A stretch of 64,000 nt of DNA. Origin: Phycisphaerae bacterium (GTDB lineage: Bacteria; Planctomycetota; Phycisphaerae; UBA1845; Fen-1342). Every line of letters begins with the position of its first letter. Position 1 is the stretch's first letter. The stretch is taken from NCBI GenBank assembly GCA_022072445.1, contig JAJVHV010000020.1, forward strand, positions 62,001-126,000. The letters run 5' to 3'. A program made the translations under genes and the position numbers. The notes under the pieces are model-generated. The model was not told the origin of the DNA. It searched no databases and saw nothing but the letters and a program-made list of their open reading frames with translations. Positions 6,681 through 13,195 of the stretch are shown in pieces.

Positions 6681-6775
6681 GCCGATCCTGTCGCCGGCTG
6701 CCGGCTGCTCGCTAGCGGGCGGGCTGGAACCCCGCCCCACCCAGATTGCGTGGCGCAGAGTCGTTGAGGCATACA

Positions 6776-9700
6776 CTAGCCGAGCTTCTGCTCGATCAGC
6801 TCGCGGCCGGCTTGCAGTGCCTCGACCAGCTTCGCCGGGTTCTTCCCGCCGGCCTGCGCCATCGTCGGCGGCCCGCCGCCGCCGCCCTCGACAATCGGTG
6901 CGAGCGCCTTCACCACGTCGCCGGCCTTCAGCCCCTTCTTGATCACGTCGTCCGTCATGGCCGCCAGGATCAGCGCCTTGCCGCCCGGATTCTCGTCCGA
7001 CGGCGCCAGGCGCACGCCGAGGATGATCGCCGCCGAGCCGCATTTCTGCTTGATCACGTCGGCGCCGTGCTTGAGCTGCTCGAGCGGCGCTTCGGGCAAC
7101 TCGCCCACCACGATCGACGTGTCGCCCGATTTCACGGCCGCCGCGATCAGCCGTTCGACGTGCTCGCGCACCGTGACGGCGGTGTCGGCGGCGTGTGCCT
7201 TCTGTGCCTGCTTGACGCGCTCCTGAAGCTGGCCCAGCAGCTCGCGCAGCCGCAGCCGTGCCAGATGCGGAATCTCGGCGTCGGCAATTCGCTGCTGCAG
7301 CGCTGTGACCTGCACCGCCAGATCGCTCGCGTTATCGTCCGCGCCTTGACTCGTCTCCGATCGGTCACGCGGCGGACTCGAGCCGCGAGGTTGCGTATCC
7401 GAGCCGCGAAGTTGCGTATCCGAGCCGTGCGGTTGCGGATCCGAGCCGCGACCGTGAGGGAGCGGTTTCTTAGCCGCGCTCGGGCCGTCCGCGACCACCA
7501 TCGACTCGTCTCTTCGCGCCGGACGGGACGTCTCGCCGGCCCCGTCCACGCCACGCGATAACCCCGTTGCGCCCGGAAGATCGCCTCCCTGTCCCTCGAG
7601 AACGTATTCCACCGCCCCGCGGACGTCGGAATCCGCCCAGAGATAGCGCGTGCTTCCGTGTCGCGCCCAGATCTTGCTGTCGGCGCGCAGCGCCCCCGAC
7701 TCGACGAGCCGCCGTGTCGCGTAGGATTTCAAATCGTTCATGATTCGCTCGGGCGGCGAAGCGGCACTCACGACCACGTGAACGTGATTCGTCCGCACGT
7801 TGAGCGCGTGCACGGTCCATCCGCGATGTTCGGCGACCTCGAGCACCGTGCGGTGCACGATCGCGCGACTTTGCTCGTCGAGGGAGACAGGATCGCGCTT
7901 GAGCGAGCGGAACTCCACGTACTCGCGTTCGGCGTCGGCGCTGGCGGTCGGCTCGCCGGGGATGTTGTGCTCACGATCGACCGATCCTGCGGGGTCGCCA
8001 TGCAGCCACGTGCCGTATGTATGAAACGTGATGAAGTAGCCGCGCACGTCGGTCGACGCTGGCGGCGAGTCGTTCGACGCACCGGCGTTCTTGCGCGGGG
8101 CCTGTGAAACCGCTCCCTTACGGTCGCGGCTCGGTTCCGCACTGCCGCGGCTCGGTTCCGCACTGCCGCGGCTCGGTTCCGCACTGCCGCGGCTCGGTTC
8201 CGCGGCGTCGCGGCTCGGTCCCGCGGCGTCGCGATTCGGACTCAGCAGCGCCTCCGCCCGTTCGACCAGCTCGTTACCCCGGCGCTGCGCCTCCGCCGCC
8301 GCGTCGCCCGTGATGCCCACAATGCGCCGCACGCCCTTGGCGACCGCCTCTTCGTGCGTGATCACGAATCGCCCGATCTCGCCCGTGCGCTTGACGTGCG
8401 TCCCGCCGCAGAATTCGACCGAGTACTTCCGCCACTCGGCGTTTTCGGGATCGTCCAGCAGCGTCAGCAACGGACCGGTCGCGGTGGCGCTGGACCCGTC
8501 ACGCGCCGCACCAGCGGCTTCCCCGCCACGCGCCGCGCCGGAGGCTGCGGCTTCCACGTCGCGCGGGCCGACCGGCACGCCGATCGAGACGACGCGCACC
8601 TGGTCCGGGTACTTCTCGCCGAAGATGGCCCGCAGGCCGTTGATTCGGATCGCCTCGGCCTGCGCGACGGGGACGTTGTCGTTCGTATACACGACGAGAT
8701 CGCGGCGAATCTGCTCGTTGCACAGCGCTTCGATTTTCTCGAGTTCCGACGGCGTCGGCGGTTTGGCGTGCGAGAAGTCGAAGCGCGTCTTCTCGGGGTC
8801 GACCAGCGAACCCTTCTGCTGCAAGTGTGCCCCGGCCGGGTCGAGCACCTCGCGCAGCGACCAGTTGAGAATGTGCGTGGCGGTGTGGTTGCGCATCGTG
8901 GGGACGCGAAGCTCCCGCGCGACGCGCGCTGAGACATTGCCACGGTCGAGAACCTCGCCTGCGTCGCGCTCCGTGGCGTTCTGACCCTGCGCCGCAGAAG
9001 CGTCGCCCCTAAACTGGGACCACAAATGTCCCTTTTCGCAGTACCCGAAATGAAAAACGAATCCGTCGCGTTCCTGGCAATCTTCGACCATGAACCGACC
9101 GTACGCGCCCTCGATCACGCCACGATCACCGACCTGTCCTCCCTTCTCCGCGTAGAAGGGCGTCTCAAGCAATACCAGCACTCCGCGGTCGCCTGCGCGG
9201 AGGATCGACACTTGCTGGGATGCTTCTGCGCCGGTGAGGATCAGCTCGACTTCTGTTTTCAGCGACTCTTCGGCCGCATGTTGGTACCCGCGAAAACGGG
9301 TTGGGCCCTTACATTTTGTTTTCACGAACGACGGAGCATGCGGATCGGTGAGGAGCCAAAGTTCCTTCGTGGTCCTGGTCGCTCCCCGTGCTCTTTCCCG
9401 CGCCTCCTCCATCAACCGCTCATACTCGACAATATCGACCCGCAACCCGCGCTCCGCCGCCATGATCTCCGTCAGGTCGATCGGAAAACCGAACGTGTCG
9501 TGCAGCTTGAAGGCATCCGCACCAGAGATCACGCCGATCGAGTGCTCTGTCCCGTCGCCTCCTGAGACGGCGCTCCCAGTCGAGCCCCGAGTTGCGTCCC
9601 CAGCCGAGCCCCGAACCGCGTTCGCACCCGATTCCCGACCCGTGTCCCCAGCCGAGCCCCGACCGTGAGGGAGGGGTTCGACCGATGCGGGCGCACGGCT

Positions 9701-11794
9701 CGCGCGTAGGGCCTCCGTCTCTGCCGGCACCTGGCTGGGAAGATCCCGGCCTTGACCTTCAAGCACGTAATCGCACGCGGCCCCGATCGACGCCTCGCGC
9801 CAAAGATAGCGCGTGCTGCCGTGCAGCGACCAGACCTCGATGTCCCGTTCGAACAGCCCCAGCTCGCGCAGCTTGCGCGTCGCGTACGACTTGAAGTCGT
9901 TCATGATGCGCTCGGGTGGCACCGCGGCACTGACGACGACATGCACGTGGTTTGTCCGCACACTCAAGGCATGAATCGTCCAGTCGCGGTGTCGGGCGAC
10001 TTCGTTGATCGCGGACTCAACCGCGCCGCGCTGCCGTTCATCGAGTGCGGTCGGCGGGCTTTTCGAATGCTGCTGCTCGAAGTGCTGCCGGCTGGCGCTC
10101 GGATCGATGTAAGGCTCTCCGGGGATGTTGTGCTCGTCGTCGACCGAGCCTTCGGCGCGGCCATGGAGCCAGGTCCCGTACGTGTGAAACGTGATCAGAT
10201 AGGCGGCCGGGAAGTCGGCGGGATCGGAGGACCTTTCGCGGTCGGAGGAGACCCCTTCCTTACGGTCGGGGCTCGGCTGGGGGCGCGATGTGCCGAGTTT
10301 GGGGGGGCGCGATGTGCCGAGTTCGGGGGCACACTCAGGTCGAACCCCGTCCTTACGGTCGGGGCTCGGCTGGGGGCGCGATGTGCCGAGTTTGGGGGGG
10401 CGCGATGTGCCGAGTTCGGGGGCACACTCAGGTCGAACCCCGTCCTTACGGTCGGGGCTCGGCTGGGAACGGATTTCGAGCAGCGCGCGGTTGGCTGCTT
10501 CCTCAAACAGCGCGATGCCGCGTTCCAGCGTCCGGCCGAACGACTGCTCCTCATCGCGAACGATGTCCGCCACGTGAGCCGCGTTGTCGCGCGGGTGAGC
10601 GGCGTTCGGCCCGATGCGCAGCTCCGGAAACGCGTCGCCCATCGCGTCCACGACCGCGGGCACGAGCTTGTGGAGGAACGGCTCGTGCACGTTCAGGTAC
10701 TGCCAGCCGTAGCGCACAGCGCGGCGCAGGATGCGGCGCAGCACGTAGCCGCGACCCTCCTTGTCCGGCGTCGCACCGTCGGTCAGGGCGATCGTCAGCG
10801 TGCGGATGTGGTCGCCAATGACGCGATAGGCCACATCCTTCATGACTGCGACCCGATTCGCCGGCACCTCCCCTCCGTCGCTTCGTCGCTCGGTCGCTTC
10901 GTCGCGCTGCCCCTCCAGCAGCCCGGCATACGCCGCTGCACCAGTGACTCGCTGAATCGCCGCGAAGATCGGCGTGAACACGTCGGTGTCGTAGTTCGTC
11001 ACTTTGCCGATTCGCCCGGTCTCCACGCCGCGAATGACGGCACAGACGCGCTCGAAGCCCATGCCCGTGTCCACGTGCTTGGCCGGCAGCGGCGTCAGCT
11101 TCCCATCCGCGCCGCGGTTGAACTGAATAAACACCAGATTCCAGATTTCAATGACGCGCGCATCGCCCGCGTTTACCAGCGGGCCGCCGCTGCGGTCGGG
11201 CGTCAGGTCGATGTGAATCTCGCTGCACGGTCCGCACGGGCCCGTGTCGCCCATCTCCCAGAAGTTGTCCTTCTTGTTGCCGGGGTGGACGCGCTCCGGC
11301 GGCAGAATCTCCCGCCACAGGTCGCGAGCTTCGATGTCAGGGTCGAGCTGTTCCGCCGCGTCGCCTTGAAAATACGTCGCGTGCAGCCGCTGTGGATCGA
11401 TCCCCCACACTCTCGTCAGCAGTTCCCAAGCCCACGCGATCGCTTCCTTTTTGAAGTAGTCGCCGAAGGACCAGTTGCCGAGCATCTCGAAGAACGTGTG
11501 GTGGTACGTGTCGTGGCCCACGTCGTCGAGGTCGTTGTGCTTGCCGCCCGCGCGGATGCACTTCTGGCTGTTCGCGGCGCGCTGCGGCGACCCGGGTGTC
11601 GCGCCCGGCCAGCGGTCGACGTCCGCCGCCCGCTGCCCCAGAAAAATCGGCTTGAACTGGTTCATCCCGGCGTTGGTGAACATCAGCGTCGGGTCGTCGT
11701 GCGGCACGACCGGGCTGCTGGGCACGAAGGTGTGCCCGCGCTGGCGGAAGAACTCGATGAACTCGCGGCGAATGTCGGCGGCACTACGCGTCAC
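6776..11794 (-). CDS. alaS: Alanyl-tRNA synthetase with two in-frame Y1/RAYT transposase-domain insertions
   Basis: AlaRS charges tRNA-Ala and edits mischarged products. I prefer the GTG start at 11794 (GAGGAG six bases upstream; protein begins TRSAADIRREFIEFF); an in-frame ATG at 11830 would add 12 residues. In order, the frame holds the class II aminoacylation domain (PTLMFTNAGMNQFKP, MGDTGPCGPCSEIH), helical domain, insert 1, a resumed segment (GADAFKLHDTFGFPIDL), beta-barrel and editing domain with zinc ligands (HTATH, CGGTH), insert 2, a coiled-coil linker and the C-Ala domain (EGGGGGPPTMAQAGG). Bacterial AlaRS is usually about 870-900 residues; this is about 1,672, nearly all the excess being the two inserts (roughly 308 and 298 codons). 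No stop interrupts either. Each insert holds a full HUH/Y1 domain. A separate stretch of about 25 small residues near 8480-8560 is also extra. Whether inserts are removed, tolerated or functional is unknown. Confidence 0.9.
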   Translation of the reverse strand: MTRSAADIRREFIEFFRQRGHTFVPSSPVVPHDDPTLMFTNAGMNQFKPIFLGQRAADVDRWPGATPGSPQRAANSQKCIRAGGKHNDLDDVGHDTYHHTFFEMLGNWSFGDYFKKEAIAWAWELLTRVWGIDPQRLHATYFQGDAAEQLDPDIEARDLWREILPPERVHPGNKKDNFWEMGDTGPCGPCSEIHIDLTPDRSGGPLVNAGDARVIEIWNLVFIQFNRGADGKLTPLPAKHVDTGMGFERVCAVIRGVETGRIGKVTNYDTDVFTPIFAAIQRVTGAAAYAGLLEGQRDEATERRSDGGEVPANRVAVMKDVAYRVIGDHIRTLTIALTDGATPDKEGRGYVLRRILRRAVRYGWQYLNVHEPFLHKLVPAVVDAMGDAFPELRIGPNAAHPRDNAAHVADIVRDEEQSFGRTLERGIALFEEAANRALLEIRSQPSPDRKDGVRPECAPELGTSRPPKLGTSRPQPSPDRKDGVRPECAPELGTSRPPKLGTSRPQPSPDRKEGVSSDRERSSDPADFPAAYLITFHTYGTWLHGRAEGSVDDEHNIPGEPYIDPSASRQHFEQQHSKSPPTALDERQRGAVESAINEVARHRDWTIHALSVRTNHVHVVVSAAVPPERIMNDFKSYATRKLRELGLFERDIEVWSLHGSTRYLWREASIGAACDYVLEGQGRDLPSQVPAETEALRASRAPASVEPLPHGRGSAGDTGRESGANAVRGSAGDATRGSTGSAVSGGDGTEHSIGVISGADAFKLHDTFGFPIDLTEIMAAERGLRVDIVEYERLMEEARERARGATRTTKELWLLTDPHAPSFVKTKCKGPTRFRGYQHAAEESLKTEVELILTGAEASQQVSILRAGDRGVLVLLETPFYAEKGGQVGDRGVIEGAYGRFMVEDCQERDGFVFHFGYCEKGHLWSQFRGDASAAQGQNATERDAGEVLDRGNVSARVARELRVPTMRNHTATHILNWSLREVLDPAGAHLQQKGSLVDPEKTRFDFSHAKPPTPSELEKIEALCNEQIRRDLVVYTNDNVPVAQAEAIRINGLRAIFGEKYPDQVRVVSIGVPVGPRDVEAAASGAARGGEAAGAARDGSSATATGPLLTLLDDPENAEWRKYSVEFCGGTHVKRTGEIGRFVITHEEAVAKGVRRIVGITGDAAAEAQRRGNELVERAEALLSPNRDAAGPSRDAAEPSRGSAEPSRGSAEPSRGSAEPSRDRKGAVSQAPRKNAGASNDSPPASTDVRGYFITFHTYGTWLHGDPAGSVDREHNIPGEPTASADAEREYVEFRSLKRDPVSLDEQSRAIVHRTVLEVAEHRGWTVHALNVRTNHVHVVVSAASPPERIMNDLKSYATRRLVESGALRADSKIWARHGSTRYLWADSDVRGAVEYVLEGQGGDLPGATGLSRGVDGAGETSRPARRDESMVVADGPSAAKKPLPHGRGSDPQPHGSDTQLRGSDTQPRGSSPPRDRSETSQGADDNASDLAVQVTALQQRIADAEIPHLARLRLRELLGQLQERVKQAQKAHAADTAVTVREHVERLIAAAVKSGDTSIVVGELPEAPLEQLKHGADVIKQKCGSAAIILGVRLAPSDENPGGKALILAAMTDDVIKKGLKAGDVVKALAPIVEGGGGGPPTMAQAGGKNPAKLVEALQAGRELIEQKLG
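7380..7463. repeat. 21-bp tandem repeat (about 4 copies) within alaS insert 2
   Basis: Units begin at 7380, 7401, 7422 and 7443 with GAGCCGCGAGGTTGCG or variants. The period is 21 bases, so the frame is preserved (GSDTQ-type heptapeptides on the minus strand). The last unit merges into the inverted REP-like core at about 7440-7468. Confidence 0.85.
8128..8232. repeat. 21-bp tandem repeat (5 copies) within alaS insert 2
   Basis: Units begin at 8128, 8149, 8170, 8191 and 8212 with GGCTCGGTTCCGC or a close variant; the first three are identical. The period is seven codons and the minus strand reads AEPSRGS repeatedly. The array directly continues the end of the REP-like core at 8106-8134. Confidence 0.9.
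9581..9676. repeat. 24-bp tandem repeat (4 copies) within alaS insert 1
   Basis: Units begin at 9581, 9605, 9629 and 9653 with CGAGCCCCGA or CGATTCCCGA. The period of 24 bases is eight codons. The last unit runs into the inverted REP-like core (GACCGTGAGGGAGGGGTTCG, from 9661). The copies are degenerate, suggesting some age. Confidence 0.8.
10258..10468. repeat. 93-bp tandem repeat (2.3 copies) within alaS insert 1
   Basis: Copies start at 10258, 10351 and 10444 with CCTTACGGTCGGGGCTCGG. The period is exactly 93 bases, i.e. 31 codons, so the array reads through in frame on the minus strand (PSPDRKDGVRPECAPELG and onward). The first two copies look identical. The array sits outside the REP-like core, on the N-terminal side of the Y1 domain. 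Confidence 0.9.
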
Positions 11795-11884
11795 GGCGGC
11801 TCCTCGGCACGCGGATTTCGAATCCCGCATTCTAATTCAAGTGCCGGAGTCCGGCGACTGAGACGCGCGGACGCCCTCAACCGC

Positions 11885-13195
<1,311 letters not shown>

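Follow-up and report, generated by a model that had tools for sequence, protein, structure and literature searches.

How does an essential enzyme come to carry two transposase domains within its reading frame, and whom do they serve there? The question is raised by alaS, the gene for alanyl-tRNA synthetase (AlaRS), of a Phycisphaerae bacterium (genome of 5.25 Mb, 50 contigs, 97% complete). The gene lies in a 64,000-nucleotide stretch of one contig, referred to here as the window, in which all positions below are given. The first-pass annotation had described an uninterrupted frame of about 1,672 codons with two extra modules of about 300 codons, each bearing an HUH motif and a complete Y1 domain and each placed where AlaRS tolerates changes in length. 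This description holds: the frame is open from an upstream ATG as well, the inserts measure 310 and ~304 codons, Pfam reports Y1_Tnp in both, the HUH motif NHVH is present in both, and the positions were rightly judged.

6776..11830, minus strand: alaS frame (1,684 codons from ATG; 1,672 from GTG at 11794)
9536..10465, minus strand: insert A (310 codons, residues 444-753, alaS site 2)
9737..10207, minus strand: Y1 domain A (157-aa core, residues 530-686)
9941..9952, minus strand: HUH motif NHVH of Y1 A
9767..9769, minus strand: candidate catalytic tyrosine Y676 of Y1 A (YVLEGQ, signature Y----Q)
7331..8242, minus strand: insert B (~304 codons, residues ~1185-1488, alaS site 3)
7574..8044, minus strand: Y1 domain B (157-aa core, residues 1251-1407)
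7778..7789, minus strand: HUH motif NHVH of Y1 B
7604..7606, minus strand: candidate catalytic tyrosine Y1397 of Y1 B (YVLEGQ)

The host chain is a bacterial AlaRS, in which Pfam recognizes tRNA-synt_2c in two stretches (the first covering profile positions 1-375), tRNA_SAD (editing) and DHHA1 in addition to the two Y1_Tnp stretches. Insert A is bordered by '...FEEAANRALLEIRS' on one side and 'GVISGADAFKLHDT' on the other, and the entire RDEE...KLHDT stretch of alaS amounts to 43-46 aa in sister lineages; insert B occupies the linker ahead of the DHHA1/C-Ala region. The repeats that flank the inserts and the 50-contig state of the assembly could suggest an assembly error, or a dead alaS kept beside a working copy. 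However, the gene is single, with no second alaS found elsewhere in the 97%-complete genome; its catalytic, editing (HTATH..CGGTH) and DHHA1 domains are all intact; the two Y1 domains differ at 38% of residues; and the same architecture recurs across many independent assemblies, including the one-contig genomes G036 and G032, which carry it in purH. Neither a second normal alaS nor assembly joins, the two objections that the first-pass annotation had raised against itself, thus accounts for the locus, and we regard this reading as scarcely credible and largely refuted already. In another genome (G110), alaS is split in two, its halves separated by 500 kb of the same contig (C1:827745 and C1:321275), probably a scaffolding artefact.

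The fold of the inserts is that of a Y1 transposase. An AlphaFold2 model of insert A reaches a pLDDT above 90 in its core, and its closest structural matches are the IS200, IS608 and ISDra2 TnpA proteins and TnpA_REP; in a model of a relative's AlaRS with a Y1 domain (1,184 aa; overall pTM 0.38), the Y1 core scores ~80-93 between linkers below 50. The catalytic tyrosine had been placed in KSYATR, ~20 residues past HUH, an assignment that does not survive comparison: among 50 relatives this column holds Y 30 times, W 16, N 2, H 1 and T 1, and it aligns with the KGKSAR/KGASAR helix of solved IS200-type transposases, in which the active-site tyrosine comes later in the chain (Y132 in ISDra2, according to entry titles). 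The better candidate is the tyrosine of YVLEGQ (Y676 and Y1397), ~58 residues past HUH, which is invariant in 10 of 10 aligned alaS copies, as is HUH. Within this genome, Y1 A and Y1 B have no close relatives but each other, the next ones being 39% and 33% identical and apparently degraded. Y1 A and Y1 B share 61-62% identity and are therefore not one repeat placed twice; a tandem duplication within alaS is likewise unsupported, as A and B cluster apart, each with its own set of relatives (moderate support, 85 and 94). Relatives on contigs C5 and C17 of the same genome seem degraded, and one stand-alone Y1 relative (L017 11112-12383, on C5) is broken by about ten tandem repeats VPKDATTTPGPNAR, apparently a copy in decay.

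Each alaS Y1 domain is flanked by inverted REP palindromes.

10251..10467: insert A, upstream side, three REP hairpins (10251-10281, 10344-10374, 10437-10467) arranged as 93-nt tandem units
9652..9678: insert A, downstream side, inverted REP hairpin with CCGA foot, reading as PLPHGRGS
8109..8139: insert B, upstream side, REP hairpin adjoining 21-nt tandem repeats (8111-8236)
7441..7467: insert B, downstream side, inverted REP hairpin adjoining 21-nt tandem repeats (7372-7455)

The family has 235 exact copies in this genome, against none for a reversed-pattern control. All 67 readable contexts have a CCGA foot (63) or a CAGA foot (4), with covariation at the variable stem pair (C-G in 42, G-C in 24, a mismatch in 1). 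These features point to a known group: the class 3 TnpA-Y1 proteins, or REPtrons, of Planctomycetes and Acidobacteria combine NHVH and Y----Q motifs with CnGA-footed flanking hairpins and high-copy REPs, and have been described as stand-alone genes of ~178 aa (PMC6006769). The alaS inserts share all four traits: both carry NHVH, YVLEGQ fits the class signature Y----Q (YV..EQ), and the flanking REPs have the 5' CnGA foot and the high copy number. Unlike the described members, they lie inside an essential enzyme and lack a start codon of their own; they are not independent ~178-aa genes, a form that is typical of class 3 but lies outside its signature. The same survey left out 'unexpectedly long proteins', taking them for erroneous annotations or fusions (PMC6006769). 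Across 114 genomes of the order, those with the Y1 clade embedded in alaS or valS have a median of 17 REPs versus 1 in those without it (p = 5.5e-5, kinship ignored), and the three highest counts (246, 235 and 234) all belong to embedded-Y1 carriers; some REPs are present even in 54 of the 101 genomes that lack this clade.

Several other systems resemble the inserts in part. TnpA_REP/RAYT proteins (class 2) are encoded by separate REP-flanked genes and associated with REPs and REPINs (PMC2817692, PMC3116915); the HUH/Y1 fold, the REP flanks, the hundreds of REPs and, in the ileS/purH-type Y1 domains, a YI..NP motif are all reminiscent of them, whereas the Y1 domains seen here in ileS, purH, gcvP, leuS and mgsA are internal to their hosts. 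Rickettsia palindromic elements and intragenic REPs are short palindromes of tens of codons, translated in frame and free of a transposase (PMC3733652); the alaS inserts also place palindromic repeats in frame within genes, but each holds a complete Y1 transposase. Subterminal hairpins around a Y1 transposase recall IS200/IS605 elements and IStrons, but the inserts have neither TnpB nor a group I intron and would be read through at the protein level; in place of the near-identical multiple copies of IS200/IS605, there are two at 62% identity and remote degraded relatives. A self-splicing intron, or RNA splicing of any such kind, was rejected, Rfam giving no group I or group II match in 6700-11900.

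An analogy can also be drawn with inteins, which likewise set a selfish nuclease domain in frame within essential enzymes and are patchy among close relatives; here, however, a Y1 single-strand nuclease domain takes the place of the homing endonuclease, and insertion is into loose loops, with linkers that are disordered. Could the Y1 blocks nonetheless be removed after translation, by splicing or proteolysis, freeing the transposase? Cleavage would release a domain that has no start codon of its own, and long low-complexity linkers lie on both sides of Y1. Against this, Pfam scans reveal no Hint or other splicing domain, which also dismisses an intein identity; the borders lack conserved splice residues, and the linkers vary in length and composition; and Rfam reports neither an intron nor a ribozyme. 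We consider such removal very unlikely. A second route to free transposase, the internal start suggested by the first-pass annotation, is disfavored as well: an ATG lies within 20 codons upstream of only 3 of 33 embedded Y1 copies versus 28 of 40 stand-alone ones (a few loci are duplicated in these counts), and no ATG, GTG or TTG occurs within 60 codons upstream of the Y1 domain of insert A. An internal start is thus rejected for insert A and improbable for the majority of embedded copies. In nearly all inserts no frame but that of the host stays open, the others averaging 2.6 to 6.6 stops per ~200 codons, so Y1 must be translated together with its host.

Whether the inserts are tolerated or domesticated, which the first-pass annotation correctly identified as the question to ask, depends on what maintains them. 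They could be passive passengers, akin to Rickettsia palindromic elements but larger: insertion would occur anywhere, only in-frame cases in loose loops would persist, and Y1 would have no continuing activity. The sites are loops that in relatives accept REP-only and other repeat peptides, two Y1 relatives in this genome (C5 and C17) appear degraded, and the stops in the other frames mean that survivor bias accounts for the sense, in-frame orientation, which we therefore do not take as proof of selection for a transposase. Passengers, however, would not be expected to show what the Y1 domains do. Pairwise dN/dS between embedded copies is 0.09-0.21, with dS often near saturation, and the comparison of alaS with valS of G015 gives 0.16; ratios of 0.1-0.2 span long divergence. 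HUH and the YV..Q tyrosine are invariant in the aligned alaS copies, and linkers diverge where Y1 does not: in purH of two species of one genus, the Y1 domains are 84% identical (dS 0.62, ratio 0.12) and the linkers that flank them have diverged in length and sequence. Judged by these ratios, embedded Y1 domains evolve under purifying selection, to which selection against misfolding within an essential protein could contribute. Purely passive carriage is, on balance, unlikely.

The first-pass annotation knew of no described case, and a literature search that took in few subscription papers found no published description of Y1/RAYT domains in aminoacyl-tRNA synthetases. The arrangement is nonetheless not unique: we count at least 71 genes with an in-frame Y1 domain in related genomes, and at least 41 of the 114 genomes of the order bear an insert of this kind in at least one housekeeping gene. 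The comparison of alaS with and without inserts in related genomes, which the first-pass annotation had proposed, finds Y1 in 12 of the 114, at three sites, with empty sites within the same genus. The other hosts, which emerged from searches blind to the host gene, are purH (26), valS (11, one of them from Acidobacteriota, L150), ileS (10), gcvP (3), leuS (2), mgsA (1) and DNA methylase or restriction genes (6); about 40 of 48 ileS/purH-type Y1 copies lie within frames longer than 390 aa. The present genome has such hosts besides alaS: its ileS (C27, L019 5361-10301; a 1,647-aa frame) and purH (C22, L016 5369-8263; a 965-aa frame) each hold an in-frame RAYT-type Y1.

The details of these hosts vary. 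In ileS of this genome, ~13 tandem GSIGVPPV repeats precede Y1, which sits in the CP1 insertion, unlike that of G010, G064 and G016 (L233, L235, L236), where Y1 lies directly ahead of the conserved CIVLGHVMGEDGLKMSK segment of the KMSKS loop. In G019 (L237), a second ileS Y1 is split over two frames, which reflects either decay of that copy or a frameshift in the assembly. Restriction-modification genes are another host class: in L190, L258, L261, L269, L270 and L110, the MmeI-like, type ISP and N6/N4 DNA methylases carry Y1 in frame, either internally or at their end. At alaS site 1, several loci (L044, L046, L067 and others) encode in-frame peptides unrelated to Y1 (SEPRASARA...RGLKPAA, HRLETGAT), and the site 1 loop is a general hotspot for small translated repeats.

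Has Y1 then been fully domesticated, serving the enzyme or the cell, for example, by binding REP hairpins or tRNA or by regulating the synthetase, rather than the element? RAYTs have generally been proposed to be domesticated, and the repeated presence of Y1 in four tRNA synthetases and purH, together with its vertical persistence inside a genus, is compatible with a host function. Its distribution, however, is patchy within genera, the alaS site that holds Y1 in G058 being empty in G046 and G049 of the same genus and filled elsewhere by REP-only or unrelated repeat peptides; one Y1 subfamily is common to the unrelated hosts gcvP, mgsA and DNA methylases at ~70% identity; and the nearest kin of Y1 B resides in valS of another member of the family (support 94), Y1 A grouping elsewhere (support 85). 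Together these patterns resemble movement, and full domestication seems distinctly unlikely. Host and Y1 similarities agree in part (rho 0.24-0.65), which rejects a clean co-divergence and suggests a mixture of vertical upkeep and re-invasion or hopping.

We therefore favor a reading in which the inserts are probably REP-processing transposases (REPtrons) that settled in tolerant alaS loops and persist there as domains built into an essential enzyme, as their kin do in others. We posit that a class 3 TnpA-Y1 with its inverted REP hairpins entered two length-tolerant loops of alaS, sense and in frame, the transposase inserting together with the hairpins at single-stranded sites; of such events, only those in sense, in frame and within loose loops of essential genes would survive. 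Start and stop codons of the element, useless after insertion, would then decay, and with both lost the synthetase protein becomes the sole source of Y1. Ribosomes would read through to yield one chain, composed of the catalytic domain, Y1 A, the editing domain, Y1 B and C-Ala, with the Y1 domains carried on disordered linkers. The fused Y1 probably still binds and nicks single-stranded REP hairpins, feeding the 235 REPs genome-wide, and residence in an essential gene may offer the element both constant expression and shelter from loss, since inexact deletion would kill the cell. A stronger version of the REPtron reading, to which we give an even chance, makes the transposase an obligate internal domain that moves among alaS, valS, ileS, leuS, purH and gcvP, is expressed only through its hosts and serves the REPs, in the manner of an intein that does not splice; imprecise deletion of the element would again be lethal.

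Class 3 TnpA-Y1 proteins with their CnGA hairpins and short intragenic REPs were known already; not described in the papers searched is the presence of Y1 domains within essential enzymes, where a mobile element appears to have become a permanent lodger in indispensable proteins of this bacterium and dozens of its relatives. tRNA synthetases and PurH are evidently able to house entire extra domains in internal loops, and fusions that filters have removed as erroneous annotation may be genuine and widespread across a whole bacterial order. It is an old question about REPs and RAYTs why bacteria should retain, over such long times, a transposase that is not spreading its own gene; a transposase welded into indispensable enzymes suggests a testable answer, retention through the essentiality of its host.
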